From Chiridota heheva (taxonomy: Eukaryota > Echinodermata > Holothuroidea > Apodida > Chiridotidae), in the NCBI GenBank assembly GCA_020152595.1, contig JAIGNY010001912.1:111001-175000 (forward strand): DNA of 64,000 nucleotides, read 5' to 3'. Under the pieces are notes generated by a model. It had not been told where the DNA came from. It saw nothing but the letters and a program-made list of their open reading frames with translations, and searched no databases. Each line of letters opens with the position of its first letter. The stretch's first letter is position 1. Position numbers and translations under genes: made by a program. Positions 15,331 to 55,539 of the stretch are shown in pieces.

Positions 15331-15360
15331 TGGGCAATACTTGCAAGGCGATACTTGCAT

Positions 15361-18300
15361 CAGAGAGAATGACGTCATTTGCCCTATACTACGTATAGGC
15401 CGAAGGCCGCGAGACGAAACTCCTATACCTACAGTGTTGCGAAATCAGTGATACTTTTTTAGGTCATCAACCCATCTTGGTTTCAAGTGAGGGCAGTAGA
15501 GACTTAAGAATTTAAAAAATAGAACATACCAAAGAAATGTGTAAATAAAGTATTCTACAGAAATTGTTGATTGAAATTGTTTTATACTACTGATTTAATC
15601 TTATCGTTACTTTTTGTGCACTTTTAGTTCAATGAACAAATAATTTTATAAATCATTAATATAACAACTTTAATTTTGACGTCATTCATGGATCAAGTGC
15701 GAAAAAAATTGACAAACAATGCACGCACAGTGCACTTACTTTACGCGATACCGGTACGGTACGATGCCAATGCGTTTATTACTCATTGAACATGACAAAT
15801 TGAAAGTTTAAAGCATTTGAAAGGAATTACTGCCTAACCTTATCGAAGCCGTTATGCATTACGCCTAGTTCCTAGCCTAGTTGGTAAAGGTCGGTCAACA
15901 CCATAGGCCTATTTAACCTTAGGGCGGCGGGCCGTGGTAATTGCTATCGGCTTTTTTGATATATTTTTTTATCAAGGCCAGCCAAATGCGTACGCAGTCA
16001 GACATCTGTGGTCCTAGAGATTTACCTTGTAATATTAACTAAGGTGGATCTAAGCCTAGTTATTGAAGCCTAGTTTAGGCTCGGGATTATCGGGTAGTAT
16101 GAAAAAAGCTAAAGAATTCAAGTTAACAACTTATCCTATTCAATTTCAGACCTAACCATTAGGCCTACAAAAAGGCTACATGCTTGCTAGTTATGGAATC
16201 ATTTACCATCCTTCGCCCGTAATTTATTTACTTAAACACATTTCTGTATGATTGCTGTAGTTTACTGGTCTGCGGCCTCATGAACGCCACCAGTAATGTC
16301 AAAAAGTGTATTGTGGGATATGACTAATAGCTACATTCTTGCAAGACTACTAGCAAGTTGGAACTTGACTAACATTAACGAGAATTTAGGCTATGACTTG
16401 CTTCTAATTAGCTTCCCAAATCTAACTTAATTCGCCTGGTGATTTGTTGTGTATACTGCTTGAATTGAAACAAATTGGCAAACAATTCATGGACACTGGA
16501 AATGAAATAACCCATATTTTGATACTTGTGATGGGAATATTATTTATGTCAAACATAAGGTGAAAGAAAATAAGTCAGGCAATACACTAGCTCTATAACA
16601 CATGCATACAATTGAGTTCATTTTATCAGGAAAAGCTATTAGCTCTTATTATCAGTTTATGTGGTTCAACTCAATAAATTGGTAGTTTCTTATGCCCATC
16701 TCAAACCTTCTGGTGTTGAAGGGGAAAACATTAAATGATTGAATTAAATCATTCAATTGTGTGTATGGTAAAGAAAGTATTATTTGTAAATAATACAGGA
16801 AATATACATCAATTAACTTAAACAACTGGTACAGGTTACATGAAATGGTGTGTAAATTCAGGTGTTTAAAACAGATCAACACATATTATTCTGCCATTAA
16901 CTTCTAAAAATTATTCCTTTAAATTTTCATGTACATTTCTGATAGAGGAATTGGGTCTTCATTGTGGAGGTGATCAATTTACAAAAAAAAGTAAGTAACA
17001 AGATTGAAATCACAATTTTGATTTACTGCAATGATTACCTGTATAAATTCAACTTTAACAACAAAACAACTGGTAATCAACTTTACAAACATTCCTGACA
17101 GTTTCCTTATAAGACATCTTCTGTGGATGACCATACTGCCATAAGTCCTCTACTTATCATTACAGCTTAAGCTGTAATCAGAATATTTTGTGATGTGATG
17201 CTAATGTAGATATACCACACTATTTCACAATATGAGTTTTTAAGAAAGAAACAGAAATCAACAAAATTTGAGGTTTTTCCTATGCAGCCTAACGACTATA
17301 GATCCTCGTGGTTGTAAAGTGTGGCCTATAGTCAACTTAGCTTAACCTAGTAAAATACATGTTGAAGTGTGATTTTTCATGTCTGTATACTGCAAATAAA
17401 AGCCTCGTCTGCTAGTTTTGATGTTGAATTTACAGTTTTGGGGTTTGTGTCTAATTTTTTTTTTGGTCAGGCAGACAAATTTGTGTTTATAAAAAGGGTA
17501 CACTAAAATTAAATTTTCATTTTCTCATAACCTAATAACAGTACATTCCACTGCCCAGAAAAATCATTATTCATGTGCCTGGAGCCAGAAAATATTTGGG
17601 CAGGGTATTGTGTACTACAAAATGATATAGAGGTATTCAGCTCACTAATATCTGGTACAAAATTAATTTACATTGCAAAAAATGTTTTTACTCTGTAGTA
17701 CAGTCAATGAATTTTAACAATCATACTACATAAAAGTTGGAATACTATTGCACTGTAATATAATTTGTTAATTGGATACCAAAGCAACAAAACAAATGAG
17801 AGCAAACTAAAGATTGCCTATCAATGAGAAGAGAAAATCCATGCAGCAAAATCTTCAAGTGAAGCTTTTTTTATCTTCCCAACTTGAAAGCTTGAGAAAC
17901 TTTTGCAAACAAATTGACTTTAATAATACACATAGATTTAAAAAAATGCACCCATGGATTGGAAGTAATTAGGCTGCAATACAACATATAGGTCTACTCC
18001 AAAGAGTTGTATGATTATTTTTGAACTTAAACTTGGTTATTTTAGGACCTGCAATTGTTGGTAAAGGATGTTGAACAGAAAAATGTGAATGAAACTAAAA
18101 ACGTATAGTTTATTCAAATATAAATTAAAGTAATAAGTGAGCAATTTGATCTACTGTATCTCTACCTATCTAAACAAGTTGGCATTTAACTTACTTTTAC
18201 TTTGTTTTATACACACCTATCTGCCAGTTGGTCAGCCTGTTTAGACTTTGTTTGATGGGTGTTTGTTGATAGACACATGCCAATTATAAAATTAATTAGA

Positions 18301-19672
18301 TCTATATTGGTCTCATGCCCATCCGACCCTAGCTAACAATTGTAATGCTGCATTTCAGGCATGGCCTTTTTATCATGACAGATATTTACTGATATTTTCT
18401 TTTGTCTTTAATTAGCTGACATTTTCTTTTTTTGTTAATGACTGCTGACATTTATTGATACACATTGGTTCTACTGTACAATGTATTCTAATCCAGTAAA
18501 CTTTGTTAGTGTACACATAACAAATGTCCCATAGTAAATGCACGTGAACAGCGAGTATGTGACTAATATTACTAAGCCTACCATAACATGTATAAATGAT
18601 CTGAAAACCATCTTTCTTGAGTCTGTGGGAAAATGGAGATGATCCCTCAATAATAAAACAGCAAACGTAAACCAACAAATTGCAAAGATATAAAAAGTAA
18701 TATTATAAGCTTGAAATGAGTATGTTGTTACAAACTCTAATTAACAAATTAATGAGGAACTTGAAGGCTTGAAGCTTTCTGAAGTCAATACCATGGTAGT
18801 GTACATACATAGGCCCTAACGTTATGCTAACAAATTGCAAATGGTTTCACACAATATAACGTTAGACCTAAGTTGAAGGAAAAAAGTTACACTAACGTTA
18901 CTGTAGCCTGGCTAGGCAACACAATGACCTATGATTACCCCGGCGACGCTTTTTGAAAACAATCAATCGCTAAATACATGTCTGAATGAAATAAGATTTC
19001 ATAAGCAACTTCTCCTTGTTCCTAAATTAGACTGCAATTATTGCCCGTATTTGTCAGAGCTTACGCGGGTCAGTAAAGGTTAAACTAACGGCGTACGTTT
19101 GGCGTTAGCTAGCTTCAGACTGTTCAACAACATGTGACACAATTAAGCACGTTATTTCAGGTTTACTGAAATTGTTTAAGACATCTAATAGTTTTGATCA
19201 TTTATCCCTTATCAGAAAGGTTGTTCGAGTAGTATTTTTCTTAAAATATACTTTTCAGTTAGGCCTAAGGTAGTAGGTGCGATACATGCCTGTCTACAAT
19301 CTAACGCTGCGCTAAAGTATTGTCGTTCTGCATGTACTGTAAAAAGAAATCGTTGTTTTGGTGTTCTTGTTAGAAATAAAATGAACGTTAATCTTGGTTA
19401 GAAAGACAAGTTATGATTAAAATCAATGAAAATATAATTAATTTTATGTAGTAAAGAATTTCATTTTTTATTTTTGAGGTTGAATTCGCAGTTTGCCTAT
19501 TTTTTTTTTTTTATTAACTCCATTTTTCGATGTACCGACATATCTGCTGCCCTTTCTTGGAACCAACATGGGTGGGGGTCGAACCAAAAAGTATCACACT
19601 GTAGGTATAGGAGTTTCGTCTCTCGGCCTTCGGCTTATAGATAGTATAGGGCGAATGACGTCACGCTCTCTT
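15361..19672 (+). mobile_element. TIR family copy D, 4.3 kb, with 7-bp target duplication
   Basis: Starts CAGAGAGAATGACGTCA and ends TGACGTCACGCTCTCTT (final G changed to T). It is flanked by a perfect 7-bp direct repeat, CTTGCAT, at 15354-15360 and 19673-19679. The TIRs are about 125-130 bp (15361-15490; 19545-19672) and share GTATAGGCCGAAGGC, GAGACGAAACTCCTATACC and GTGATACTTTTT. Both contain TGACGTCA (15370-15377; 19656-19663). Over the 4 kb between the TIRs I find no transposase motif and no long frame, and no similarity to the interior of copies B/C. It is non-autonomous; superfamily unassigned (7-bp duplications occur in P-like and Dada-like groups, and hAT normally gives 8). Confidence 0.85.
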
Positions 19673-19679
19673 CTTGCAT

Positions 19680-24640
<4,961 letters not shown>

Positions 24641-24649
24641 CGTTTGGTG

Positions 24650-24770
24650 GATTCGGTCTATAGCAGCCATGTAGTGGCTATAGCGTATACTACAGTCAGA
24701 TGTTATCTAACTAGATACACGTAGGCCTACGTATATCTGGAACTTCGCGTTCAGCCGGCTCAGAGTGACT
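24650..24770 (+). repeat. Dispersed GTCAGAT module, copy 2, with GGAACTTCG motif
   Basis: GTAGTGGCTATAGCGTATAC, CAGTCAGATGTTATCTAACT, then CTGGAACTTCGCGTTCAGC. The same two motifs occur at 15045-15300 but in the opposite order, so they probably belong to one larger repeat that has been rearranged. Confidence 0.55.
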
Positions 24771-26439: not shown

Positions 26440-26729
26440 CGTGTATGCAATGAAATGCCTCGCTTTTTAACCCATTTCCCTCGTTTTTTACCACTTTTTT
26501 TCTTCAAATTATCCTCTCAAAAGTTGAAGGTTGAGAAAAAAGAGCGCTCAAAAATCAAAGATTTTCAAAAACTGTTTCTCAAAGTACACGTCAAAACAAA
26601 AATTGCCTTCTCAAGTTTGACGCCCTAAATAAAGTCATTGGAATTTCAAAAATGATTTTCAAAAAGTGCATGCTCAAATTTAATGTTTGAGAAAAAAAGT
26701 TAAAGAGGCGTAGTTTTGAATCAAGTCCC
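26440..26729. repeat. Degenerate CTCAAA / TTTTCAAAAA repeat, 5' flank of the 113-bp array
   Basis: Irregular units containing CTCAAA and TTTTCAAAAA of the same style as 27150-27440, which lies on the far side of the 113-bp array. The open + frame here has no recognisable domain. Confidence 0.5.
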
Positions 26730-27140
26730 GCCCCCTTTTTTCGCGTTAAAGCGCAGTTCTGTCCTGTCATTCCCAGTTAGACGCCATTTTTCTCGTTAAA
26801 AACGTAGTTTTGTCTGATTATTCCCACGATTAAGCCCCCGTAGACCTCAGTTATTCGCATTAAAGCGCAGTTCTGTCCTGTCATTCCCCGTTAGACGCCA
26901 TTTTTGCTGTTAAAAACGTAGTTTTGTCCAATTTTCCGCACGATTGAACCCCGGAGAACCCAGTTTTTCGCATTAAAGCGCAGTTCTGTCCTGTCATTCC
27001 CCCGTTGACGCCATTTTTGCCGTTAAAAACGTAGTTTTGTCCAATTATTTCTACGATTAAGCCCTCGTAGACCTCGTTTTTTGCATTAAAGCGCAGTTCT
27101 GTCCTGTCATTCCACGTTAGACGCCATTTTTGTCCTTTCA
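26730..27140. repeat. 113-114-bp tandem repeat, about 3.5 copies
   Basis: GCGCAGTTCTGTCCTGTCAT begins at 26751, 26865, 26978 and 27091, giving spacings of 114, 113 and 113. Each unit also holds GACGCCATTTTT, GTTAAAAACGTAGTTTTGTC and ACGATTRARCCC. The minus-strand open frame at 26881-27141 is a by-product of the array, because 113 is not a multiple of three and the frame changes from unit to unit. Confidence 0.85.
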
Positions 27141-27149
27141 AATGAAAAA

Positions 27150-27440: not shown

Positions 27441-27579
27441 TCAAACATGACAAGTTTCCTATTTATTGATTGTTAAGTACACTGTCTTCTCGAATGATGT
27501 GACTCGGTGAATTGTGACGATATTATCCCAATATTATCGATAATCGTGACATGGCGATTTATCTATATTATTTTTACAG

Positions 27580-27828
27580 TTTAAACTCTTTGAAAAAACT
27601 GACGCCGTCATTGTCGGAGAATGCAAAGTGAAGTGCATCACTCTGGACAACAATGCCATTCAAATGGTTAAGTTTGAAGCGATGACAAGTATGGTCAATC
27701 ATGTGGATCCAGGAACCGGTAGGGCTTGGGACGATGATGAAGAAGTCATCGTTCCCGTCCACTACTTTCACCGCATCCAGAGAGACGGTCCCGTCTCACC
27801 AGAGGCATATCCAAGGAATATCGACTGA
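27580..27828 (+). CDS. Putative 3'-terminal exon of a protein-coding gene (partial)
   Basis: An acceptor with a pyrimidine-rich tract (ATTATTTTTACAG, AG ending 27579) is followed by an uninterrupted 82-codon frame ending in TGA at 27826-27828. If splicing is as drawn, TTT at 27580 is the first in-frame triplet. The peptide has protein-like composition unlike the surrounding AT-rich frames: FEKTDAVIVGECKVK near the start, an acidic stretch GRAWDDDEEVIVP in the middle and SPEAYPRNID at the end. The order of hydrophobic strands (AVIVGECKVKCITL, IQMVKFEAMTS, EEVIVPVHYF) and the trailing Pro-rich tail faintly recall the last strands of hotdog-fold acyl-CoA thioesterases. That is a guess, not an identification. 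No upstream exon was found; the 1.1 kb upstream is tandem repeats. A possible ATTAAA signal is at 27888-27893 and an AATAAA at 28339-28344, the latter inside a repeat. The coding strand could be wrong, since the opposite strand is also open over part of this span. Confidence 0.5.
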   Translation, partial: FKLFEKTDAVIVGECKVKCITLDNNAIQMVKFEAMTSMVNHVDPGTGRAWDDDEEVIVPVHYFHRIQRDGPVSPEAYPRNID

Positions 27829-28132: not shown

Positions 28133-28690
28133 TTAAAAGGACTTTATGGAACAATCGAGACTATCTTGTGATGGCAATCCGATGACCCAGATGAAAACAT
28201 CTCAGGGGCCACTATACAGAGCCCGACGAATCAGAAGCTCCGTGATCGAGAATATCTTGTGACGGCAATCCGATAACCCAGATGGAAAATCTTGGGGGCC
28301 GCTATATAGGTAGTGACCAATCAAAAGTTAGCATTGCCAATAAACTATGCACTTCGTTAAAAGGACTCTGCGGAACAATCGAGAATATCTTGTGACGCAA
28401 TCTGATGATCAAGAGGGAAAATCTCAGGGGTCACTATACAGGTAGTGACCAATCAGAAGCCAGCATTAAGTATATGCAAATGAACTTTACACTTGGTTAA
28501 AAGGACTCTGCGGAACAATCGAGATTATCTTGTAACGCAATCTGATGACCAAGAGGGAAAATCTCAGGGGCCACTATACAGACCCGGACCAATCAAAAGC
28601 CAGCATTGGTATCTATGAATATTCATGAGAAATTAGTCCTATGACTGGAATGCTGGCTTCTGATTGGTCCGGGTCTGTATAGCGACCCCT
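28133..28690. repeat. Irregular tandem repeat ending in a 34-bp inverted repeat
   Basis: CGTTAAAAGGACTYTRYGGA recurs at about 28133, 28353 and 28496, each followed by AACAATCGAGA..ATCTTGT, CACTATACAG and a GACCAATCA..GCCAGCATT tail. A partial unit lacking the first part begins near 28238. The last tail is followed by its own inverted copy. Confidence 0.75.
28574..28682. repeat. 34-bp hairpin (33 of 34 paired)
   Basis: The arm at 28574-28607 (begins CTATACAGACCCGGACCAAT) pairs with 28649-28682 with one mismatch across a 41-base loop. Near-identity of the arms suggests recent origin or gene conversion. Confidence 0.85.
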
Positions 28691-30070: not shown

Positions 30071-31179
30071 AAGATTTTGGAATAGCGCCTCCTATTATAC
30101 CCTATTTAAAATTCGGCACTCCTGTGTGTAAGAGAAACTTGCTATCGAAAAATCTTTATATTGGGGTATCCGTGTCTAGCTTGAAGTGACTACCAGGTCA
30201 CAGTTATTCACAGTATAATTTGAGACAAAGATAGAGAAGTTTTCTACATCGCCCACCTTTCCCACGTCATTATACGTGCAAACTCAATGGAGAACCCCCG
30301 GTTTCGCGAATTAATGCTCGTTAAATGTTTAGGTTTAAACGCGCTTAATCATGTATTTGCACTTTTTTTCTCAGAAAATGATCCGTATCAGAATTATTGA
30401 AGTGGATTACGATACATCAATGTATGGTACCTCAAATAGTGCAAACAAAAGATAACAAGGTAGTGTTTTTTTTTTTTACCTTTTTCTGACGCCAATTTTA
30501 ACGAAAATCCTGCAGACAGGCCTAACCTAAATTTCGCATGCGTACATGGTAAGTTTGACGTCGTGATGTACTACAACTAGAACTGTGCACTACTGAGGCC
30601 TATGTCGCTTGCGCTTAATTAGTCATACAACGTACGTACGTGTAAGGGATGGAGTGTAGTCTCTTGAATGAGGAGGTTATGTTTGTATTGGGGGTTTTCT
30701 GTAAAGATCAACTCAATTTAGCTTAGGTCTGGAAACAGCTAAAACCTTTCTGTATGTGGACATAGCTGTTTACAAAATTTGGAGCAAATTTGCTGCAAGT
30801 AGTCGGTGGAGCACATCAGACATTAGTTAGATAACACCAGTCTGCTAGTACATACTATAGCCACTACATGGCTGCTATATACAGTATACAAGTATTGCCA
30901 TACAAGTAGTGTTTATCTCCATCATCAGACAGGCCTACTTCCTTCTTTCCAGTTCATGTAATTAGTATGAAAACTAATAAGGTCTGGTGACTTTGTTCTG
31001 CACTTTCCCCAATCACCAATGACCTTTCACCTTCATTGTTAAGAATAAGTATATTAATACGCCATATCTGCATAAGGCATGGGGAAACCCCGGAAAAAAA
31101 TGAGTACCCAATCCCATTCAAAAGAAAAACAGACAAAGGCAAAGCGGCTCAAAATTCATATATTGGAAAATAGACTGAT
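30071..31179. other. No gene recognised; inverted module near 30.85 kb
   Basis: No exon is supported. An inverted copy of the GTCAGAT module lies at about 30820-30890 (TTAGTTAGATAACACCAGTC, then ACTATAGCCACTACATGGCT). A T9 tract is near 30468. Confidence 0.45.
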
Positions 31180-35620: not shown

Positions 35621-35627
35621 ATTGAAT

Positions 35628-38600
35628 CAGAGAGCGTGATTATACTATGTATAGGCCGAAAGCCGAGAGACGAAACTTCTGTACAAAAAATTGTGATACG
35701 TTTACGGACGCCGCCATATTTGTTTCAGCATTGTCAAGTATGCGAGGCTGGTGGACAGTGCACAATGCAGCGTGACGAGTGAGTGACGAATAATTGACTG
35801 GCGGAGTGACTGAGTGATAGCGTACCGGCCGTGCCGGGTGGAGAAAACGACATAATACGATAGAGAGCGAGTTTTGAAAACATTTTTTATTCCATGAAAC
35901 TTGCTGTTTCAATATTTCCGTTTAGATTAAATGGCGTTGTGGAGAAATGAAAACCAGCCAAGCTTCTTTTAAAGATTTTATTTTTGGAGGACTGGAACCA
36001 TTAAGAAAAAATGTCATAAATTAACGTTGAATCGTTTTGTCACTAAATTTAGGCCTACCACTTGCGTTGTCCCAGTTGTGCGAGATAATTTAGAATAAGA
36101 TTAGCATAACTTTCAGACGTTGGTATGATTTAATCACAGAATAGGTCTGTTTTTACTCAGTATACATGGGTCCTGGCGTACATATAAAGAATTTAAATCG
36201 ATTTTTGGCCAAATCTTGAACATGTCGTGCTGGTCCTAACGAATTTGGAGGTAGGCCAAGACTATTAAAAAATACAAAATACTAACGTTAGACATACTCA
36301 AATTTAAAGGGGATATATACACAATGGGCGGCGGACGTAGGCCTAGTAGGTTAAATGTCAAATTTAGACAAAAATGACAACTCTTTGGTCTAAGTGGAAT
36401 AATTCAATTAAAAAATAAACTGTTACTGTTAGGGTCATACTTCAAAATTATTGAAGAAAATTCTTGAAAGGTATCCCAATTGATTTATGAAAGGGGAATA
36501 AGCTATCACAACATTGTTCATGTTTGCTTACAACGACTATAAATTTTCTCCTGAAGTTAACTAGACTGCTAGAATTAACTAGATTCACTCTACAACTTTA
36601 ACTGCTTAGTGCCACCCTGTCCATGTCTAAAACACAAATTTTTGGTATGTTTTAACCAGGAATTTTTGGAAGTAAGTTAAAGAAAAAAAATTGAAATGAT
36701 AATAAGATAAAAACATTAACTGCAGTTACTATACTTTCATCAGTTTAAATCCACATATTTTGCTGATTTTAGGTATAAAAACATCACTATCACTTCATAA
36801 ATCATTTGTGAAGTATTTTGCCTTTATAATTACTGAAAGAGAGTTCATAGTTCTTAATAAATTTGCTATTAAGAATTAATTACCTCAAAATGCAATGACA
36901 ATTTGACAACATCTATTACAATTTAAGTTTTAATGTCTTGGTTATATGCAAGTTACTGTAAATACAACTCACAGCAATGTTTTTTTTTTTTATTGTAATG
37001 TATAAACATATTATTAACACATATGTTACTTGCTTAAATTTGTGTTGTCATTATGATACTGTATATCCCAATGACTTTTATTAAGCCTAGCTGTCTTAGC
37101 AGAGTATAACTACATTGCATTAAAGCTAAAACTGTTCATGGCTTGTCATAAAGCCAACTCTCAAAAAATTTCAGTGTTTTATATTAAACATAAACAGCTA
37201 TTTTGTAGATCTTTTCAAAAAGATGTTCAAAAATAAATACCAAAAGCATTTGACACATTGAAACATGAGCAGCACTAAAATCAGAAAAGTTTTAATTAAT
37301 TTTGCACATTTCATCAGGCTGACAATAGGTTAATTCAGTGTATACAATAATTTTTCAGTAACTTAAAATTAACTTGTTAATAGAAAACTGAGGTAGGCCT
37401 ACAGCTATTGAAACAAATATATTGTAATTGAACAATTTACACTCCATATGAAATAATAAGTGTAATTATATTTCCATGTGTCTCCAAACTTTTCCGGTCA
37501 AGATGCCAAATGAGTGTAAATGGTGACAGAATGATTTTTGATAACAAGCCGATATTGGCTTTGATACTGATACTTTTGTTTTTAATTTCTATTTTATTAT
37601 GACATCAACCTCAGCCTAGATGTTTCTCAATTAATTTTCTTTTTTATCGGTAGGTCTATCAAATCTGCTTCAGATTGTAGTTCAACTTCAAAAGAGTTTG
37701 ATTCAACAAAACATCCACAATGTTATTCAGCTATTAAGCGTAGCCTAAACGTAATGCTATACGTGTTTTAATTTTGGTTTCATTTACAATTTCACAAATA
37801 TTTTCATACCTTTTATTATATTAGCCCATTATTTTGTTTAATTTCTGCATTATCAGTAAAACTTAGGAAGGTTAATCTTTTTCATTTTTATTTGAAATAA
37901 AGCTGATGGTGTGTAGTTTTACTAACTATACTGTACAATAACAACAAGTTTTCAAAGTTGTTGCCTGCATTGAGAATTACATCAAACATTTAAATAAGAA
38001 AAAAGAAAAGGTTGATGGCCTCTGTTATTGAAACAAACGTTCAGTATTACTTGCCGTGAAGCAAACTAGGGGTAACAAGTAAAAACCACAACATAGTACG
38101 TTTGTTGTGCATGATTTTTTTTTTTTTAGATAAATGTATTTTAATTTATATCAGTATCTATTTCGGCAATCATGTCTGTTTTTTGCAGAAAAAAACCAGG
38201 TTTGAAAAATTATTTGTATGGAGTAACCCATCTTGCTTTTAAAATGTGCATCTGTAAGTAGGCAACATTTTTTATGTGTAAAGGATGGCCTAATCTCTGC
38301 AAGAAATATTATAAGATTTTCACATATATTTCGTATATGACTCAATATAATTACTGAAGATAATGACTGCATATAATTACTAAAGGTTCAAATTATAATG
38401 CCTATGTAATGAACATGTGTGTAATTTACATACATAATTATAAACATGCTTTTGCATGTAGACTTTAAATTAGATGAGGATCATTTCAGGTACTAAAACT
38501 AGTATAAAAATAAATTAATTTTTACAGAAATGATAAAAAAAATTCTGCAGAAGTTCGCCATGTTTGAAGAAATTTTAATCTATCTTCATTTGGTAATTCT

Positions 38601-40587
38601 TTGTGAAGGCGAATTAACTTATTGAAAGTGTATGTGTTTTTAATTTGCTCATATGCATAATTATACATTTAACAGCTATCACTCAACACAAACAAACAAT
38701 GGGCTTTTGATATGGATCTCTACATTCACACTTTACATATTACTAGCATATACTATTTTTCTATATTACAATTGTATGACAGCCTGACAGGTAACTAAAG
38801 CAGTACTTTATACTTGTGGTTAACTGTGATGGATAGTATATATTAGACAGCTAACGAAGATGTGAATTAGACATCTAAAGATAACATCCAGTAGACATTT
38901 AAAGTAGATAAATGCGACAATTTTTTTCAGGTTTAAAAAGGTGTCAGGTAGACGTCTGAGGTAGATGCACATAAGGGTCGCAAAAAATTGTCAGGTTTTA
39001 CAAAATAATGTCAGGTATACATCTAAAGTAGATATACATGTGTAAGTGACAAATAGTTGTCAGGTTTAACAAGAAAATGTCAGGTAGACATCTAAAGTAG
39101 ATATACATGTGTAAGTGACAAATAGTTGTCAAGTTTAACAAGAAAATGTCAGGTAGACATCTAAAGTAGATGTACATACATAATAGTAACAAATACTTGT
39201 CAGGTTTGACCTGCCATATTTTAGTATGTCAGTAGGCCTATGTGAAAAGCAATATACTGTGCATAATTCAATTTGTATCTCTTTACCTCATTAGAAGCTT
39301 AAAGGAATTTGGTTGTGTATAGGCAAAAATATATAAATTGTTTTTAAATATAAAGCATCACAGTAGCAAAACATTTCATCAAAATCGGTTAAACAGTGGT
39401 TAAATTTCAGGCCTGAATTTGCATACTTTATGCAGATTTTGTGATGTAGGTTGAATACAGGCCAGGACAACCTTGACGTTTTCTTTAGTAAATCCTTTGT
39501 TACTTAAATAATGTCTTCCATAATTCATTGATGTGGTGCTTAAAATTTTGACCACTTGAAAATTTTGATTATAAAACTTTTAGTCCTAAGTAGGAACTTT
39601 CCCATCCTTCAATTTAGGCAAGAAATTAAAGATTGTGACTTACGTTAGTTAGGGCATGCAGTGCAGTGATTATCAAGAGAAGAAGCTCTTTTGCACCAAA
39701 AAATGGGATAAATGATAGGTTGAATATATTTTCTCCCTGCACTGATTAAAATGTGATAGCTTTAGTGGATCTAAGATTAAACTAAATTGCTTAGGATACA
39801 AGAAAAAAAGTCAACGAAAAACACAATTTCTTAGCTGTATTAACTTCTAACCCACTATCAGTCATAGGCCTATCGTTAGGCTACAGCTAATTAAACAGCT
39901 AAGGTTAAATAAACCTTCATTTTTTTCATTTAATCAATAATTATAGTACAATAACCGACATCAACGAGTTTTTACTGAGACTGATGACTGATTTATGTCA
40001 GATCCGTAACACTAAGTTAACCTTAGGCTATTTGATTATTGCTTCCGTGCGAAAAAATGAAACAAATTCACAATCACGGAATTGTATAAATTATTGGTTA
40101 GTACTATTTTGCGCACTAATTTTTGTTCAATTTCTGATTGAAGTATTTCTTGGAAATCTATGCATTAAGTAAACCAACATAATCCATTCTACGTGTATTT
40201 CGTGATCAATCCAAATAATTTTCGAGTAGAATTGTTTCATACACATTGCTTCTTCCCGCAATGCGCGTACTAGTCTCGAACAAATACCTTAAATTTAGCT
40301 AAACATAAAGGGCTTTAAATGAAAAAAAATTATCCAGAAAAATAAGGCAAAACAAAATCAAGTAGTATACAACTTTAGACCCACATACCAATTTCTACGA
40401 AATCCATCATTCTCTTAAATGTATACCGTGCTTTTCAAAGCGTCTACGAAAAAAAGCACGCTGGAATAAAAATGGCAACGATGGCTACATAAACGCATAA
40501 CGTTTTTCCCACACTGTAAACATAGGAAGTATCGTCTTTCAGCCTTCGGCCTATCCTTAGTATAGGACGAATGACGTCCGCTCTCTG
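35628..40587 (+). mobile_element. TIR family copy B, 5.0 kb
   Basis: Starts CAGAGAGCGTGATTATAC and ends GACGTCCGCTCTCTG. Flanking 7-mers are ATTGAAT (35621-35627) and GTTCAAT (40588-40594), 5 of 7 identical, so a decayed target duplication is likely. The TIRs are about 115-125 bp. The inner part of the left TIR (GTGATACGTTTACGGACGCC, then CATATTTGTTTCAGC) matches the reverse complement of the right. The interior matches copy C nearly throughout and copy A in part. It holds a 69-bp minisatellite (39010-39216). No transposase or long frame is seen. The right TIR has lost the TGACGTCA octamer (TGACGTCC). Confidence 0.82.
39010..39216 (+). repeat. 69-bp minisatellite inside copy B, about 3 units
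   Basis: GTCAGGTAGACATCTAAAGT-type units begin at 39010, 39079 and 39148, exactly 69 bp apart, each with GTAAGTGACAAATAGTTGTC downstream. Degenerate units extend upstream to about 38870. The minus-strand open frame across it reflects the period being a multiple of three. Copy A has a single unit and copy C a large (TA)n at this place. Confidence 0.85.
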
Positions 40588-40594
40588 GTTCAAT

Positions 40595-43112: not shown

Positions 43113-43115
43113 CAC

Positions 43116-43162
43116 ATACCCAAATAGTGCAGATCTCCAAATTTACCGATTTGGGTATGTGC
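43116..43162. repeat. 12-bp hairpin ACATACCCAAAT / ATTTGGGTATGT
   Basis: Inverted repeat directly after the truncated MITE at 42777-43112. Another small hairpin, AAGTTCCCAGA paired with CTGGGAGACTTT, is at 43231-43258. Confidence 0.6.
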
Positions 43163-43258
43163 CCATGTCCATTTAAAAAGTGGCGCAACACACTAATCAA
43201 AAGTCAATGGGATTTTACACGTCTCAAAAATAAAGTTCCCAGATTTTTCTGGGAGACT

Positions 43259-43990
43259 TTATTTACGATATCAAAATCAAGTTCCTTCTCACTGAAAAAT
43301 TAAATACATTTACTTCAGTTTGTTTTCAGTTCCAGTTGTAAAATTTGGAGAGAAACAACAACAATAAATGGTCAAAATTAGAAGGGAAAAGAAAAAAAGC
43401 AACTATTTTTTGTCATTTTTTCTTCAAAATCGTAAAACGCTCTTTTCAATATATGTAATACCCGCGCATGTGAATGTGCGTGCACGTATCAAATGTATTA
43501 CGCCTCACAATTAGCGTGCGCAATATTTTGAATATCTTACCCTTGTGACGCGTACGTACGCTCATAGGGCCTATGGCGTTAAACGCGTTGGAATTGCAAC
43601 ATACAATGAGTACAATCCAATTCCAGCGCTTTAAATACGCCCATGAAAAACGCCTGTGAAGTTCCTCGCCAGTGTTGCTCTTTCTCACACTCACGTACGC
43701 GTAACAATACTCAGCGTAGAAAATTCAGTTCTACGCAGAATTTTCACTGTAAAAGACCACGGAGCCAAAACTTTCAGAAAATAACGTTTTTTGATACATT
43801 TCTAGCAATAAGTTTTGCTCGATGATATCATCATTTGATTCGGAAACATCTCCTTGATACCGAGGACTAATTTTTGTCGTGTTTACAAGGTAAGGAGAAA
43901 AGTTGGAAGCCACCGAAAGTAAAAGTTTGTTGTTTTGGTGATGTTGCATAATATTGCAACAGCATTGTGTTGAGGTGTAGGCTCACTTAG
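43259..43990. other. No gene recognised
   Basis: Contains a CpG-rich patch (about 43460-43720) with repeated CGTACG. No exon is supported. The minus frame at 43446-43694 and the plus frame at 43643-43825 overlap and show no known domain. Confidence 0.4.
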
Positions 43991-43991
43991 G

Positions 43992-44030
43992 CTAGTCAGA
44001 TAAACATCTGACCGTAGTATACGCTATTGA
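43992..44030 (-). repeat. Dispersed GTCAGAT module, inverted copy
   Basis: CTAGTCAGATAAACATCTGACCGTAGTATACGC is the reverse complement of the module at 49062-49098. It abuts the left end of the MITE at 44023. Confidence 0.65.
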
Positions 44031-44394: not shown

Positions 44395-47321
44395 ATTGCA
44401 TGACTGCGAATACTCGGTCAGACATCATCCTATGCATATAACGGTGGAAACCGCTACATTAACTCATCATAGTCGCGTCGCAGAATATTTGCGACGCACT
44501 CCTGTTTTGCGAACATTTTCCAAGAAATGTATACTTTTTTACCTCATTCATTTTAACCTGAAAAAAGTTAAGCTACATAACTAAAAAAGCTTCTAGTATG
44601 TAACTCTTAATCTTAAAAGCTTGAGCACATAAATATACATTCAATAACTATGAATTAAATCCGTAAAAAGAAGAAACTTTCACCTCGGCTACCTCGGTTG
44701 CTACCTTCTCACAATCGTGTGCGCCAAAGTGAATGTACCTAATTATTTCAAATTCTATCGAACATCGACCATGCCAGCGAAGCGTAAATGTTGAACGCGT
44801 GCGTAAAAAAACAAAACCTGCGTCTAAAACAAGTACACACTTCCATTGACTTTACTGATTGAAGATAGTATTAGTAATCATGGCATATAGAAACAAATTT
44901 AAGACATATAATTAATGAAATAAATGACAAGTATACATTCATGTTTTTTTTTTTTGCCAAATGCGTCGTAAGCAACTGGAGGTGGCAATCAAAATATTGA
45001 ATAGAGAGGATACTTTCATGAACTGTTTGGCAACCGGAAGCGTCAAAAATTCAATTGAAGCCAATACAATTTACCTCAAGTTTAGGCCTACTGTCATACA
45101 TTATCAATTAAATTTGTAGTGAACATTATTATGAGGTGTATTGAAAAATAATTAAAGATGCACAATAAAGGAGTTTCCCGTATAGTTCAATGTTGTTCCC
45201 AATCAATTTCATTCTGGTACGACTGCACGCGAAATAGGCAAGGAGCGAGTCAAGAAGAGGGCAACATGGTCGTAATACTTTGGGTGTGCATGCATTTGAA
45301 TGTGAAAAGCACAAATAATAAGAAATAAAGCTTTTATATCGAAAACATCCATTTCAAAGCATAAAAAGAGTTTTGAGTATTACAACTGTTACTTTATAGC
45401 AAGGGCGAAAATAACGCCTAAAATAGATATCACAAAGGGCACTTCTTGCCCTGTTGTTATCGTGAAATGGAGGGCCCAATTCTTGCCTCTATTGTCCCCG
45501 TGTGGAGAAGGGTAGGGGTTGCCCTCGTTGCCCCGTAATTCAGGTGTTCTTGGTTTCATTGCCCGTCTACGTCTCATACGGAAGGCTTTGATATGTTGAT
45601 CGTTTGTTTGTTTTTATTGTATTCAAATTGTAGCCTTATACTTATATAGATAGATATAGACAGAAAAACTATTCTAAATAGTCCCGATTTATTTTTTGTC
45701 GGACAAATTTGTCTAGCACCTCCTTCGCTCGTAGTCTAGTTACACCCCTGTGTGCACGATGATCAGAGGACAGAATTAATCCAGCACAGAATTACAACTT
45801 ATGAATTGCAGATACTTATAATACTTTAAGATGGAACTAAGGCTCATTTTTTCCGGTTTCAGATGCTCATTAGGAATATTAGATACAGAAAATGCTCGTA
45901 CTAAATTGTCTACCCTAATTGGCCTGAATTCTTTTAACCTCCCCTGGGTATAGCTAAAAGCGCAATTCCCTTCCCTACCGCGACTAAAATTGATTTACTT
46001 TCAATCGTCCTGAACATTGCTAATGGCCCTTTTCTTTTAATATTAAATTTGCAATCACGACAGTTAAAAAATCAGAACAGAATTTCTTTGGACAAAGCCA
46101 GGCCCGAATACGTCGAGATACGAGAAATGGATGCACTTGAAAGTCCATCCGGCGAGATCAAACTACGTTGTAAACCAGTGCTTATCCTACATCCAGAATG
46201 TTCCAAAATTATCTTTGTGTGAACCTATTCATGTACACTTTGGAAAACTAAATATGAAAGGAATTTGAGCTCCTTCAAATTGAATTCACCATGCAGAACT
46301 TCATTATTGAGGGCCGAAAATACTTGCCCCAATCAAAAATAACATTAACGGAAATGACCCATGTATCGTCCTCGCTTCAAACGCCACTGAGTTTATAAAC
46401 AAGTGAGGGGATTCATAACAGAATTCGGTCGATGGTCTCCCCTCCTTCCTTCCTCCCCTCCTCTCCTCCCGGGATCGATGACTATTTCCATACTGTCTAT
46501 GATTAGTTTGGTTGTGATGTATCTATCAACACGCACAATGAAATGCTAGGTGTCCTGTCCCTCCTGTTTTTAATCTCGTCTGTCTTTTGTTAGTTTCGCT
46601 AATTGGCATGTTTGCGTCAAAGTGTGTATGAAATGTGATATCTTTGATCATGTGCCTTTGATCTCTCATCGGGCGGAAGGTCATAATTCCCACCCAAAAA
46701 AAAAAGGCTTTTGTTATTAAAACATTTCTTGTATTTGGCTCCTCGGGCCCGTAGCGGAGAGAAAAGGAGTAAGGGGGAAGGGGGACTTCAGAACGAACGA
46801 ACCCCTTTTATTGAAAAAGTGCCCTTTTAAAATCTAAAAGAATAATAAACGTCTGGAATTTCAATGTTTGTTGTCCTGTCATGCAAAAAATGGACCACCC
46901 CTTTCTATTTCCTTGCTACGGGTCTTTCCCTGGTTCGGCGTAGATATTAGAAAGCTGTCCCCAATTTTTCTTCTAAAATCGCGTAACAGAGGAACCAGGA
47001 CCCTTCGTAAAACAACAAAAACTTTTGGAACCTTCCATGATCTGTTCTAACATACCCCAAATACTTTCTGGCAAAAGTGTCCTTAACTTCAGATCTTATT
47101 GTCCTATTCCTTCTAGATTAAACTGTTTCGGAAATACTGCTCGGGAAATACTGCTCCATCAACAAAATAGGTATCTATAATTATTCCATTTTGATTACAA
47201 AAAAATAACTGCAGTGCCATCTGTAGCCTTACAAAAATCATGCGGCGCGGCGGCGGCGACACATGTGTCCAGTTCGCTGGCGTTGTATTTATTAGTACGC
47301 GTATCGGTGTTGTGCACCCTA
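44395..47321. other. 2.9 kb without a recognisable gene
   Basis: No exon is supported. Notable composition includes a pyrimidine tract at about 46437-46475 (CTCCCCTCCTTCCTTCC) and a GGCGCGGCGGCGGCGAC patch near 47242. GGGCAC..TTGCCC-type segments at 45435-45540 look internally repetitive. Short frames on both strands lack motifs. Confidence 0.4.
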
Positions 47322-48256
47322 CAGTAGGTGTACCAATTCAGCACATGTACCAATTCCGCGTATTTTCGCATCTATTTATTCGTTTACTTCTAGTCATTTA
47401 TTGCTAAAATCTTACCATTTGTTCTTACTCTTAAAACATACAAAATTACGAATTTGTGCTGAATTTTAACTTCAAAATATTTTTCCGTTCACGAGTATAA
47501 GAAACATTTTTATCCTTTGATTTCGAGCCTACATCACTCAAGACACATGATTCTGTAAAAAGTAAAAAAAATCATACTACTTTTTTTCCGTTTTGATCAA
47601 AAACGCACGAATAAAAAAATCCTCAAAAATATGGTCAAGCTTCGCAGGTTAAATAACGTATGAAAATTATTGTAAACTTGCAAAATAAACAAAGTTTGCA
47701 CGATAAATATTGTTTTTCCATGTTTTCGCGACCTTTATCGCTTGCGAAATTCCCGTACCAGTTTAGCGTATTGTCTTCTCTTAACTACTTGACTGCGCTT
47801 GCGCCGTATGAATACGCAATTTGTTATTTTCCTATTGCAGCTGGTACATACAAAAACGATAGAAAAAGGTTCAATCTTAAAACGGATTTTATTTAATAGC
47901 CGACTGACCGACGGGTATCATTGTATGTAAACCTAATGTCAAGAGTTTATTAAGATGATTTTGTTTAATATATTTGTGAAAAGCTGTAAAATATATGTAT
48001 AAAAATGAGATAAATTGCAGAAAATCGTGTGTTTTATATACGCTCAACTGGTACACATTTCGTGGTACATGTACACCTTGTCGAAATTTCAAAATAAAAA
48101 TTAAAAAAATAATAAAACTTTTAGAGTTCAAATACTTTTGACTAGAATATTTATATCGTAAACTTTTAATCAATGATATTTTTTAGAAGTAGAAAACTAC
48201 ATATAACGAACGGAGGTAAAAACAATTCCTAATGTGCTGAATTGGTGCACCTACTG
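47322..48256. mobile_element. TA-flanked TIR element, 935 bp, mariner-like by structure
   Basis: The left end CAGTAGGTGTACCAATTCAG (47322-47341) and the reverse complement of the right end, CAGTAGGTGCACCAATTCAG (48237-48256), differ at one base, and TIR similarity continues into CACAT. TA dinucleotides flank both sides (47320-47321 and 48257-48258), as expected for Tc1/mariner-type insertion. The longest internal frame is 94 codons, with no DDE motif I can recognise, so the element is non-autonomous. Confidence 0.8.
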
Positions 48257-48527
48257 TAATTAAAAAAAAAAAAAGTTCCAAGAGCGTACGGTTGAACTAA
48301 AAGGAGTATACAATATTGGCTTACATTTTTACCCATTTTTCAATCATTTTAGGATTACCGACATGTTTATATTACTTACAAGATTAAAAGCAATAACCGG
48401 AAAAGTTAACTATATAGTTTTTTGTGCCGTAAGTATCGTAATTACAGTGTAACAGGTGACGTAAATAGACGGTGTTGTCGCGATTTTAGGACTGAGGCGA
48501 TTTCCACGTTAAAACAGATAGGACGGA
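48257..48527. other. Spacer, nothing recognised
   Basis: AT-rich sequence with an A12 tract directly after the mariner-like element. No gene is seen. Confidence 0.4.
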
Positions 48528-49043
48528 GTCTCGCTCTGTATTGCATGTAGTGCGTAGCATGTAGGGCATACAGAGGGAGATGTTATCTCACTAAGGCTCA
48601 CTAGGCAAAACCGTACTAAGCCCGTACACAGTTACGTCGATTCCGACCTCGAGAATGTATCGTTCATACTCTAAGTCAGAGATCAGAGCGAATGAGTTGG
48701 AGTCTGAAGATTTGTACTGGATGAACATAGGCCTATGCCAGATAATTAATGTTATGTAGAATTGTAAAGTTTATTCTTTATTACTTTAAAGTTGTTAGAA
48801 TTATGAGTATGGGAGATTCTGGAAATCAAACTTCACTGCAATTGCAAAATAATATTTTCTTAAAATATAAGTCCTTTTTCCGTTTGTATTCGATTCCTAA
48901 AGGCGTTTCTCTTAAAGGTCTATGGACACGTACAAAGGTTTTCTGCTCAACCACTAGTGAGAACGACAAGGCCTAACTTAGTGAGATAACATCTCCCTCT
49001 GTATGCTTTACATGCTACGCACTACATGCAATACATGCGAGTC
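48528..49043. mobile_element. Foldback element with arms of about 67 bp and a nested MITE fragment
   Basis: The left arm (48528-48595: GAGTCTCG..., GTATTGCATGTAGTGCGTAG, then CATACAGAGGGAGATG) pairs with the right arm (48977-49043) with few mismatches. Between the arms, 48600-48655 matches the right end of the MITE at 44023-44394 (GGCAAAACCGTAC, CCCGTACAC, GTTACGTCGA, CCGACCTC). The remaining interior is unrecognised. The minus- and plus-strand small frames inside are not credible genes. Confidence 0.75.
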
Positions 49044-49054
49044 TTCGCAGTCGT

Positions 49055-49098
49055 GTAATGGCTATAGCGTATACTACGGTCAGATGTTTATCTGACTA
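49055..49098 (+). repeat. Dispersed GTCAGAT module, copy abutting element C
   Basis: GTAATGGCTATAGCGTATAC, then GGTCAGATGTTTATCTGACT. It ends 8 bp before the CAGAGTG start of copy C. A related module precedes element D. Confidence 0.65.
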
Positions 49099-52096
49099 GG
49101 CCTAACCAGAGTGCGTAACGTCATTCGCCTTATGCTACGTATAGGCCGAGAGACGAAACTTCTGTACCAAATATCGTGATGCGTTTATGGACGCCATACT
49201 TGTTCCAACATGGTCAACTATGAGATCAGTGGACAGTGCATGCGTAACGAGCCAAGAGACTGAGTGATAGCGTACTGGCTGGGCCGGGCGGAGAAAACGA
49301 CAAGATACGATAGAGAGTGGATTTTTTAAATATTTTTCATTCCACTGAAAATTGCTGTTTTAACATTTCCGTGTAGATTAAATGGCGTTGTGCAGACATG
49401 AAAACCAGCCAAGTTTCTTCTAAAGATTTTTTTATTATCATGGAGCACGGGAACCATTATTATTAAGAACAAAAGTCGTAAATTACAGAATTAACGTTGA
49501 ATCATGCATTTTGTCACTAACTAAAGGCCTACCACTTGCGTTGTTCCAGTTCTGCGAGATAATTTAAGATTAGATTGGCATAACTTTCAGACGTTCGCAG
49601 GATTTCACCGTAGAATAGGTCTGTTTATACTCAGTATACATGGGTTCTGGCGTACGTATGAAGAATTTAAAACGATTTTTACCAAATCCCGAACATACCG
49701 CATCACGGGACCTAACGAATTTCAAGGTAGGCCAGGGCTATTGTTAGACGTGGGCTACTGGGGATATTTCCACCACGGGCGGCGGGCGTAGACGTACTAG
49801 GCCTACGTTAAATGTCAATTTATACAAAAATGACAACTTTTTGGTCGAAGTGGAATAATTCAATCAAAAACTAAATTGTTATTGTTAATTTATGTTAATG
49901 TCATGGTTATATGCAAGTTACTGTCAGGAACCCTGTAAATACAACTCACAGCAATGTTGTTTTTTTCATAGAAAAATATTATTAATGCATATTTCACTTG
50001 TTTAAAGTTTTGTTAAGCTATCATTAAGATATAGCCAATGACTTTTATTAAGCCTAGCTGGCTTAGCAAAGTATAAATACATTGCTTTAAAGCTAAAACT
50101 GTTCATGGGTTGCAATTGAGCCAACTCTTAAAACAAAAATATTTTTCAGTTTTTACATAAAACATTAACAGCTATTTTATAGTTCTTTCCAAAAAGATGT
50201 TCAAGAACAAATATTAAAAGCATTTGAGACACACATTGAAAGATGAACAGCGCTTAAATCAGAAAACCTTTAATTAATATTGTACATTTCATCAGGCTGA
50301 CAATAGGGTAATTCAGTGAATACAATCATTTCAGTAACTTAATTTAACTTGTTAATAGAAAACTAAGGTAGGCCTGCAGCTATTGAAACAAATTTGCTGT
50401 AATTGAATAATTTACACTTCCTATGAAATAATAGTTCATTCATACAGGGAGTTGAATGGCAACTCCCTAACTTATATCATTATGATATATTCAAGATTAT
50501 GAAGAAATAGGTGTAACTTTGTTTCCATGTGGCTCTAAACATTACCAGTCATGATGCCAAATGAATGTCAATGGTGACAGAAAGAGTTTTGCTAACAAGC
50601 ATATGACATAGACTTTAATACTGAGACTTTTTTCTATATTACTATGCCATCAACCTCGGCCTAGATGTTTCTCAATTAATTTTTTTTTAATGGTAGGCTT
50701 ATAAAATCTGCTTGATATTGCAGTTTAACTTAAAAACAATTGATTCAATGAAACAACCCCAATGCAAATCAGTTGTTAAGCTTAGCATAAACACAATGCT
50801 ATGCATGTTTTAATTTTGATTTCATTTACAATTTCACAAATATTTGTATACCTTTGAATATATCAGCCCATTATCTTTTCTTAATTTCTATATCTAAACA
50901 ACCTGTTAAATCTTAAGGTTAATCTATACATTGTTCCATATTGGATGATAAATTGTAATGTTGTGTACAGTATTCAAACTCAATAAAATGGGTCATACAT
51001 AGGCATACAATATGTAATATAGAGACTGCAAATAGGTGTGTGTTTGCAAAGGCATTTTTATTTGGAATAAAGCAAGTTTCATAAACTATATACTGTACAA
51101 TAATAACAAGTTTTCAAAGTTGTTGTCTGCATTGAGAATTACAACAAACTCTTTAAAAAAAAGGTTGATGGCCACTGTTATCAAACAAACGTTGAGTATT
51201 ACTTGGCGTGAAATGAATTAGGGGTAACATGTAAAAGCCACAACATAGTGCATATGTTGTGCATGATTGTTTTGTTTTTCAATGAATGTATTTTAGTTTA
51301 AATCAGTATGTATTTTGGCACTTATGTCTGGGGTTTTTTTGCAAAAAAAGGCCAGGCTTGAAACAATTGTTTGTGTGGAGTAATCCATCTTGTTTTAACA
51401 AGGTGCATTGGTAGGTAGGCAACATTTTTTGTTAAGGATGGCCTAAACTCTACAAGAAATATATTATATTTAATATACATTCCGTATTTAACTGAATATA
51501 ATTACTGAAGGGTAAAATGATAATGCCTATGTAATAAACACGTATGTAATGTATGTATTTACATGCTTAATTATAAACAGGCTTTTGCATGTAGACTTGA
51601 GTTTTGATGATATTCTATGAAGATCATTTTAAGGTAGTGACAGTAGTATGAAACAAAATTATTTTTTACAGACATCATTTTTTTGCAGATGTTCACCATG
51701 TTTGAAGAAATTTTATTCTATCTTCATTTGGTATTTCTTTGTGAAGGCAAATCAACTTATTGAAGGTATGTGTACTTTTAATTTGCTCACATGCATTATT
51801 ATGCATTTCTAGCAGCTATTATTCGACACAAACAAATATAGGCTTTTGATATGGAGCTCTACATTCACACTTTACATAGTACTAGCCTATACTATTTTTT
51901 TGATATTACAGTTGTATAACAGCCTAACAGGTAACTACAGTGTCACGTAAAGCATTACCTCATACTTGTGGCTAACTGTGATGGATAATATCTATCAGAC
52001 AGCTAAAGACAGGTAGACATCTGAGGTAGAGGCACATAAGAGTAGCAGATATTTGTCAGGTTTAACAATGTAATGTAAAGTTTTCATCTAAAGTAG

Positions 52097-52656
<560 letters not shown>

Positions 52657-53460
52657 GTGACAAATAGTTGTGAGGTTTAGCCACCATATTTTAGTATGTC
52701 AGTATGTGAAAAGGAGAAAACCTGGAATAATTCAATTTGTATGTCTTTACCACGTGTGTATAGGCAAAAAAAACTAAATTATTTAGAATATAAACCCTCT
52801 TAGTAGCAAAACCTTTCATCAAATTCGGTTATACATTGGTTTAATCTTATGCCTTAATTTGCATACTTTATGCAAATTTTGTGATAAAGACCTACGACAG
52901 GCCAGGACGACCTTGACGTTTTCTTTAGTAAATCTTTTGTTACTTAAATGTCTTTCATAATTCATTAAAATGGTGCTTAAAATTTTGACCTCTTGAAAAT
53001 TTAAGTATCATATTTTAGTGCTAAGATAAGATTTAAGGGTACTAACTTAGGACATGCAGTGCCGTGATTATCAAGAGATGAAGCTTTTTTGTGAAAGAAA
53101 GTGGGATAAATAATATTAGGTCGAATATATTTGCTCCGATTGAAATGTGAACGGCTTTAATGGTTTTAAGATTTAGCGAACAGTTGTAGGATACGAGGTA
53201 AAAAAAAATCATAAAGCAAAATAAAATTCATAAAGATAAAGAAAATGCTTTAGGTCTAGCTGCATTAACGCTGCATTAACTTCGGGGGCTCACTATCTGA
53301 CTATGCTCAGTTAATGTTGCATAAGTTAATTTCCTGGACAGACGTATCCAGATAGGCCTACAGCTAATTAAACAGCTTAGCCTAAAAACCTTCATTTAAT
53401 CAATAATTAAACAAAAATAACCGACGTCAATGAGGTTTCACTGGGACTGATGACTGATTT

Positions 53461-53637
53461 GGAATGGTTTTCCTGAGTGGGTAGTTAAGTCCAATTCTGT
53501 TCACAATTTCAAGATCAACATTGATCAGTTCTTTACTAATTCTGGACGTCTTTGATTTTTTTATTTGTGGTGGTGGTGTTAGATTGGGCTTTTTATGGGG
53601 TCACTAACCCTTCTTAGCCCGTAATCTTGTTATGTTA
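53461..53637 (+). pseudogene. 5'-truncated non-LTR retrotransposon 3' end (CR1/L2-like)
   Basis: From 53460 the frame reads WNGFPEWVVKSNSVHNFK and continues to INIDQFFTNSGRL, then TGA (53553-53555). This is the typical C-terminus of a CR1/L2/Jockey-type ORF2 (WNxLPxxVVxxxSVNxFK...). The 3' UTR ends in a TTGTTATGTTATG-type short repeat rather than poly(A). The insertion is flanked by TGATTT (53455-53460; 53638-53643). Copies A and B lack it: B reads through GACTGATTTATGTCAG. A second, longer decayed copy with a similar 3' end lies at 58985-59495. Confidence 0.8.
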
Positions 53638-54191
53638 TGATTTATGTCAGTTCCGTAACACTAACGTCCGTGCCAAAACAAAAAAAATCCCAATCACCAA
53701 ATTGTATAAATCATTGGTCAGTACTATTTTGCGCACTAAGTTCTGATTAAATTGAAGTGTTTTATTAAAATTTATTCATTAGATAAGCCAATATAAAACA
53801 TTTTACGTGTATTTTGTGACCAATCCAAGTAATTTTCGAGTACAACTTGTTACATACGCATTGTATCTTTCCGCAATGCGAGTACTAGTCTTGAACAAAT
53901 ACACCTTAAATTGAGTTAAATCATAAAGGGCATTAAATGAACATTTTTATCTGGAAAAATAATGCAAATTAAAATCAACAAGTATACAATTTTAGACTCG
54001 TATACCATTTTTTACGAAATCAGTCATTAACTTAAATGTATACCGTGATTTTTAAAGCTTGTATAAAAAAGCACGCTGGAACAAGTATGGCGTCCATAAA
54101 CGCATCACGTTTTCCCCACACTGTATGTATAAGAAGTTTCGTCTCTCGGCCTTCGGCTTGTAGTATAAGACGAATGACGTCACGCTCACTG

Positions 54192-55539
54192 GCGTAACTA
54201 TGCAATTTTATGTGTAAAACATTGCACCGCTTTTTCTTCTAAGCGAAAATTTATACACCTTTAAATTTCAAAACCTAATCTTAACTAGAAAGCAACTCAG
54301 TTAGTCTAAGAAAACAATTACCTTAATCATTACATTTTACAAAGCCACATTCCTGAGAAAATGAGCCTTTTTTACACACTTACTTTGCTATTTAGTTGTT
54401 CACGGCTTCAGAAATGGAACAGTAGTTAGGCATCACTGCGTAATTTGAACGTACTCGAGCGAAATCCGGACGCTCTGTCACGTGAGCGAATATGCTTTAA
54501 TGCGCGAGCGTTCCCAAGTAAAATCAGGAACAAATGGCCGAAGAAGGACGCAGGTCATCACGTTGTACGCTTGCGCTTCGATGCGTTATTAGGTTTAAAT
54601 TTTTCTTTTCATAAGACTAAAATTCGTACTTATTTTACCATATTTCCTTTAAACTTGACCAAGTTTTTGAAATTAATTTTAATAATTTCCCAATTTGACT
54701 TAACAACCGGGCAGGAAGCATTTAACCAGGAAGGTACAATCCTCTTAAGGGAAACGTCCTCCCCCTGCCCAATCGTCCTACTCCTCTGGGCCCACATTCA
54801 TTTCATAGAAAATATTTTGATATACTTTAAATGTCAAAATGTAGTATTTTTGCAAATTTAAAAGAAAATTTTATCTAAGTCGGTTTAAAATGTGCAATTT
54901 CACAGCTTTGTTATAAAAGATTTGTGTGCAAACATGGAAAAGTATGCCAATTTGTGTGTTACTCTTGTCATGTATATGAACGGGACATAGTCTCTATTGT
55001 CTTATGTAAATCCATTGTTTTTAACCCTCTGCATGCCATTTTTTTTTGAAAAAGGAAGATAATTCTAATGAAGAGGATTTGATGCCGGAGAAGGCATTTT
55101 AAACATTTTAAAATTAAATGAAAAAAAAGCAAAGAATTTTGAGACGTTTTCCTTTTCATACATTACATTTTTTTAAAGATATTTCAAAACAAATTCAAGC
55201 TTTTAAAATGTAAAGACTATGAAACTCATAATGTAATGCTCTTTTCAGTGGTTAAATAGCACAAATATTTATGCCCAAATTACGTAGTCACCTAAACTTC
55301 CGGATTAGGGCATGAAAGCATGCGCATTGAAAATCGTGTCCCACACAATATAGAAAAAAAAATCAATGGCCTACAACACGTGTCCACAAAATTCTAATCG
55401 CAAAATTATTTTCGATATAAAAACTGTATTTATTTAATCTAAAAAATCGATAAAGTGTTCCGCAAAGAATAAAATATCAAAAATTACGAAATTTCTCTAT
55501 AAAAACGGAAAATGAGCCATAAATGATGTGCGTCATTAA
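54192..55539. other. No gene confirmed; 138-codon frame noted
   Basis: The longest non-repetitive frame in the window is at 54445-54861 on the + strand. Its first third is CpG-rich and basic (RNKWPKKDAGHHVVRLRFDA) and the rest is AT-rich and hydrophobic. The abrupt composition change and the lack of a known domain argue against one protein. An exon or promoter near 54450-54580 remains possible. Confidence 0.3.

Follow-up and report, generated by a model that had tools for sequence, protein, structure and literature searches.

Three transposon-like elements lying near one another in the genome of the sea cucumber Chiridota heheva raise the question of how DNA segments with unrelated interiors come to share the same ends, and what kind of transposase would move them all. 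They were found in a stretch of 64,000 nucleotides (the window), to which the positions given below refer. Element D (15361-19672, plus strand; 4,312 bp) has one type of interior (type 1), whereas element B (35628-40587, plus strand; 4,960 bp) and element C (49107-54191, plus strand; 5,085 bp, including an (AT)n array at 52102-52653) have another (type 2) and are 80% identical to each other. No coding sequence was detected in any of the three. The window further contains copy A (11567-14285, plus strand), a truncated and internally deleted type-2 element that has a right end and is broken by an unrelated stretch at around 11608-12938, and end remnant E (508-543, minus strand), approximately 36 bp of the family end adjoining a different, very abundant repeat. 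With up to three mismatches allowed, the family end pattern has six matches in the window and none in 100 shuffles.

The terminal 32-36 bp or so that are common to D and the B/C type have the sequence CAGAGAGCGTGACGTCATTCGCCCTATACTAC, which varies among B/C-type ends (to CAGTGAG, for example), and contain an inner palindrome, TGACGTCA. Comparison of the window with itself aligned the terminal inverted repeats (TIRs) of D over 141 bp (77%) and those of C over 116 bp (76%); for the two ends of B, the left of which has an 11-bp deletion, no pair was reported at an E-value of 1e-6. A preliminary description of this DNA had assigned CAGAGAG...CTCTCTG termini and TIRs to all three. It turns out that B, C and D are all TIR elements, but that D terminates on the right in CTCTCTT and that the termini of C are CAGAGTG...CTCACTG. 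The flanking pairs described at the same time were recovered unchanged: CTTGCAT on both sides of D (15354-15360 and 19673-19679; 7/7 identical), GCCTAAC and GCGTAAC beside C (49100-49106 and 54192-54198; 6/7), and ATTGAAT and GTTCAAT beside B (35621-35627 and 40588-40594; 5/7). Together these pairs match at 18 of 21 positions, a value that none of 200,000 random triples of 7-mer pairs reached. When end offsets and lengths of 4-10 were scanned, the observed flank score was reached in one of 3,000 trials. An empty site of C was sought from the neighbouring repeat, and none was obtained.

The host assembly (1,100,099,931 bases in 3,744 contigs) contains 1,583 matches to a 21-bp portion of the end with at most one mismatch, 792 forward and 791 reverse, against none for the reversed control. 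No exact match was present in the viral_contigs and genome_contigs collections, as expected of two non-animal collections. A search with the D end gave 1,694 first-look candidates, and among the best 40 of these, the 39 outside the D element of the window were all fetched. A right end was accepted at 24 of the 39 loci; at 14 of the others no candidate for one lay within approximately 6.6 kb, and one candidate with five errors (L032) was set aside. Runs of N are present in L011, L012, L015 and L018. Among the resulting 27 both-ended elements (24 from the genome and three from the window), left-right flank identity reaches 0.79 for a length of 7 bp, as against 0.22-0.30 for lengths of 4-6 and 8-12 bp, so that the 7-bp target duplications originally claimed are borne out, and at this length only. 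The flanks match at 7/7 in 11 of these elements, at 6/7 in eight, at 5/7 in three and at fewer positions in five; L047 entered the count as 1/7, yet CCGCTAC can be seen by eye on both sides of it. Of five widely spaced end pairs that were examined, the pair on contig C194 alone has matching flanks (ATGCTAC on both sides, 7/7). The flanks differ for the pairs on C114, C569, C1442 and C2010, which may therefore be the ends of separate copies, and C569:228204-234872 was rejected as a single element because its flanks do not match.

The interiors of B and C are 80% identical over 4,208 aligned columns, and D matches B and C only at the ends in the window self-comparison, which agrees with the original view that B and C share an interior and that D differs from them there though its ends are alike. 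Six-frame searches of B, D and C against Pfam (the reverse frames of C without 49107-49299) revealed no family at E ≤ 1, in agreement with the earlier report that none of the three has a visible transposase frame; the same frame-reading approach does detect P-type domains at a control locus. Between B and C there is no clear codon-phase bias, and short indels are mostly not in threes (17 of 66). The 17 D-type copies that were aligned with D differ from the majority sequence at about 5% of positions, without a consistent codon phase, and the majority sequence has no frame longer than 96 codons. Ancient coding capacity in the interiors was rejected on these grounds, neither comparison having given a clear codon-phase signal.

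The sites into which these elements were inserted are themselves alike. The left flanks of 37 D-type copies (L029 and L047, with the end placed one base off, were dropped) have the consensus GTWNWAC, with G in 23, T in 28, A or T in 32, any base, A or T in 31, A in 31 and C in 21; at position -10, three bases further out, A or T is found in 35 of the 37. Twenty D-type right flanks (L015, L029, L038 and L047 dropped) agree with this motif. For the B/C type, 34 of 41 rows were retrieved; the other seven were the window itself, a partial second row and five rows whose match began at base 3-8. L068 was kept though its end is one base off. These 34 flanks score 4.0 of 6 on GTWNWAC versus 2.33 for 7-mers drawn at random from the window, and none of 20,000 random sets scored as high. 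The motif is close to the published consensus of the Galileo transposon, GTANTAC. Taken by themselves, the five sites within the window score 14 of 30 on that Galileo motif, a value reached by 1,467 of 100,000 random sets and suggestive only; for palindromy, 17,446 of 100,000 random sets did as well, which is not significant. That the D-type and B/C-type ends follow one target rule is the best available sign that one transposase may serve both. The common GTWNWAC target thus supports what had been proposed from the ends, namely a single mobilising system, with a putative transposase, for element types that share nothing else.

We consider, at a probability of about 0.7, that both D and the B/C type belong to a P-superfamily-like (Galileo/1360-like) group of cut-and-paste DNA transposons and that, as non-autonomous members, they are moved in trans by one transposase. 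A P-type transposase encoded elsewhere would recognise the shared ends, excise the element and insert it at a GTWNWAC-like site with duplication of 7 bp. Given such recognition of the ends, any DNA between two of them could travel, and the 64-bp form described below appears to owe its spread to the same system. The P superfamily is characterized by target-site duplications (TSDs) of 7-8 bp (7 bp in Galileo), which are found here in the long elements and the 64-bp form, and by a palindromic GT...AC target extending beyond the TSD, which is found at the copies examined across the genome. Its TIR start consensus, CANRG, is also seen here, a feature that does not separate P from hAT. The family behaves like a P-superfamily element and probably is one, an assignment that rests on the TSD and the target, both of which fit Galileo, rather than on a linked transposase.

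As judged by analogy, the architecture of the family has precedents in the P superfamily. Galileo, a P-superfamily transposon of Drosophila, makes mostly 7-bp TSDs at GTANTAC within a 15-bp palindrome, AANGT...ACNTT, and the targets of P and 1360 tend to ANAGT/ACTNT (PMC4168063, in the portion consulted). Galileo G, Newton (N) and Kepler (K) are almost identical over their terminal 40 bp, and a shared transposase has been inferred for them (PMC2775673, in part). The P-MITEs of Anopheles gambiae have P ends and interiors unrelated to any P element, and repair from ectopic templates is among the origins proposed by the authors (PMC1562414, in part). Like Galileo, Newton and Kepler, the family described here combines 7-bp TSDs, a palindromic target of the GTANTAC kind, end-sharing variants and mostly non-autonomous copies. 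In contrast, the TIRs of Galileo reach hundreds of base pairs, and the consulted portions of the two Galileo papers note no counterpart of the 64-bp end-only form (PMC2775673, PMC4168063). No Galileo-like transposase is linked to the ends here, and the likeness is one of features, not of aligned end sequences. Shared ends around unrelated interiors are common to this family and the Anopheles P-MITEs, which differ in their 8-bp TSDs and known autonomous P masters (PMC1562414). A palindromic target is also found for the Drosophila P element and 1360/Hoppel, with the halves ANAGT/ACTNT (PMC4168063). However, the Drosophila P element duplicates 8 bp and binds its transposase at internal sites in addition to its 31-bp TIR (PMC7776569, in part); the 64-bp form has no room for sites of this kind. 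The 8-bp duplications of the P elements of Drosophila, zebrafish and Anopheles argue against the P assignment (PMC7776569, PMC1562414, in the portions consulted). If that assignment is right, the 7-bp GTANTAC-type targeting of Drosophila Galileo extends to a large family in a 1.1-Gb genome. The family would also offer a natural dissection of what the transposase needs, with types that share about 32 terminal bases and one that has nothing else.

This last type consists of two 32-bp ends placed back to back with no spacer. In the first two cases the ends of a pair lay 63-64 bp apart; one pair has GTTGGAC on either side, and the second lies in a CA-rich stretch where the flanks match at only 4/7. 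A 64-bp query gave 326 first-look candidates, the best 40 of which all span 58-70 bp. We examined 22 short copies, the two initial ones and 20 that were fetched, among which L115, L116 and L119 look like duplicates of others. Their common sequence is a perfect palindrome, from which individual copies depart at one to four bases, and each half of it is identical to positions 1-32 of the majority D-type end. The flanking 7-mers match at 7/7 in ten copies, at 6/7 in seven and at 2-4/7 in five, and flank identity is 0.81 at 7 bp and at most 0.35 at the other lengths from 4 to 10. The left 7-mers fit the target motif as well (G in 13, T in 14, A or T in 21, A in 15 and C in 13 copies at positions 1, 2, 3, 6 and 7, respectively), and all element types appear to obey the same target rule.

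The 64-bp palindrome may itself be a mobile element, in which two 32-bp ends without a spacer or subterminal sites suffice for a P-like transposase, a reading that we hold tentatively and at somewhat less than even odds. A duplex of 64 bp is too stiff for its own ends to loop together easily, so that such an element would need either a second copy as its partner in trans or recognition in the form of a cruciform. Few DNA transposons would be smaller, and all that its transposase requires in cis would be contained in it. A somewhat more doubtful explanation is that the palindromes are not mobile units but excision scars, left where a P-like staggered cut, some 32 nt in from each terminus, would have removed a longer element. 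In the P element the transposase cleaves the 5' strand at a point 17 bp within the TIR (PMC7776569, in part), so that donor sites could retain both tips between the TSDs, and the halves of the palindrome do correspond to the D-type end. Joining of 3' overhangs would not readily produce an exact palindrome, however, and 19 of the 22 copies are exactly 64 bp long, although the query length favours that length. A query made from B/C-type halves found no 64-bp form of that type: all rows of at least 53 bases were at most 93% identical, and one row of 40 bases reached 95%. This is a weak test because the B/C-type ends are varied, only 20 of 34 beginning CAGTGAG and eight CAGAGAG, and the absence speaks weakly for one spreading unit rather than for scars from all types. 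As a sign of staggered internal 5' cleavage the palindromes are at most suggestive. A literature search on palindromic or smallest MITEs yielded nothing that is drawn on here.

A P-type transposase combines THAP/HTH and an RNase H domain with a GTP-binding insertion. Possible sources of the transposase were sought with PF21787, the P-type RNase H domain, which has 46 matches in the genome (best E-value 5e-28), seven of them in open frames of more than 600 codons. At 11 of these loci, on contigs C1-C577, no exact family end was seen nearby among the matches listed (100 ends, by eye). In the comparison of PF21787 matches with family ends among the matches listed (100 of 138, plus 88; by eye), none was seen to adjoin an end, and the closest is about 15 kb away (C1570). 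These comparisons take in a minority of the family ends and of the PF21787 loci. Two P-type loci examined over 6 kb contain no such TIR pair, and one loose single match falls within the open frame of L049. This frame (L049:2831-4708, minus strand; 626 codons) has a P-type RNase H domain together with matches to RAG1 importin-binding and, below the cut-off, to zf-AD, and it calls to mind the N-RAG-TP transposon of Aplysia.

The hAT superfamily normally duplicates 8 bp, with the target motif nTnnnnAn, and its end consensus accommodates CAGAG, as at the termini found here. A hAT branch making 7-bp instead of 8-bp duplications nevertheless seems unlikely as the source of the family: flank identity is 0.22 at 8 bp in the 27 pairs, and GTWNWAC, with A or T three bases beyond it, is closer to the Galileo target than to the hAT motif. 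In its favour, Repbase seems to contain hAT families with 7-bp TSDs, judging from an example query in the consulted part of PMC4455052. Mobilisation by a transposase outside the described superfamilies is less probable still. No coding copy of the family was found, and we know of no family end that matches this one with its inner palindrome TGACGTCA. The P group, however, accounts for both the TSD length and the target motif, and the absence of a partner is weakly tested. A literature search for the CAGAGAG string together with TIR terms gave no match combining all of them. Of the two groups that the 7-bp length had initially suggested, the P group fits in TSD and target, whereas Dada, which also duplicates 6-7 bp but is without TIRs and targets genes for snRNA or tRNA (PMC3706591, in part), was rejected as highly improbable, since the family has long TIRs and no RNA gene was found in the 64-kb window (no tRNA by ARAGORN, no Rfam match).

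Several copies adjoin other repeats. Remnant E is not claimed as a third long interior, because what lies on its inner side is a separate, abundant repeat. Of the best 40 of 3,450 first-look candidates for this repeat, 37 begin only at base 32-33, and four copies of it begin near (A)GGGTGT(T/A)TCAG without the family end, which makes nested insertion of the repeat into a family end likelier than a third interior. The repeat (window 424-507 and L062-L065) starts near AGGGTGTTTCAGCTGACGTCACGAGGTCACATGAC and was apparently inserted into the family end at 508-543. In L026, a D-type end gives way, farther inward, to a reversed B/C-type stretch, which may be another nested insertion. At L058 (G000:C1442:12110-12160), runs of TTAGGG, possibly telomere-type repeats, adjoin the family end.

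Elsewhere in the window, a short structured repeat, GTGGCTATAGCGTATACTACGGTCAGATGTTATCTAACTAG, and its variants occur on both strands at 15238-15268, 24663-24714, 30824-30890, 43987-44027 and 49047-49105, the last of which reaches to the left edge of element C. An open frame at 27550-27825 (plus strand) has a weak Tim44-like match (E-value 0.037, below the curated cut-off) and no match among solved structures, and is a possible host exon. Tandem arrays at 26737-27132, 28245-28607 and 56938-57346 have units of 113, 140 and 205 bp, respectively. Degenerate repeats of about 21 bp, of the TTCAATTTTC type, occupy 6217-6672, and another 21-bp array is located at 55575-55645.
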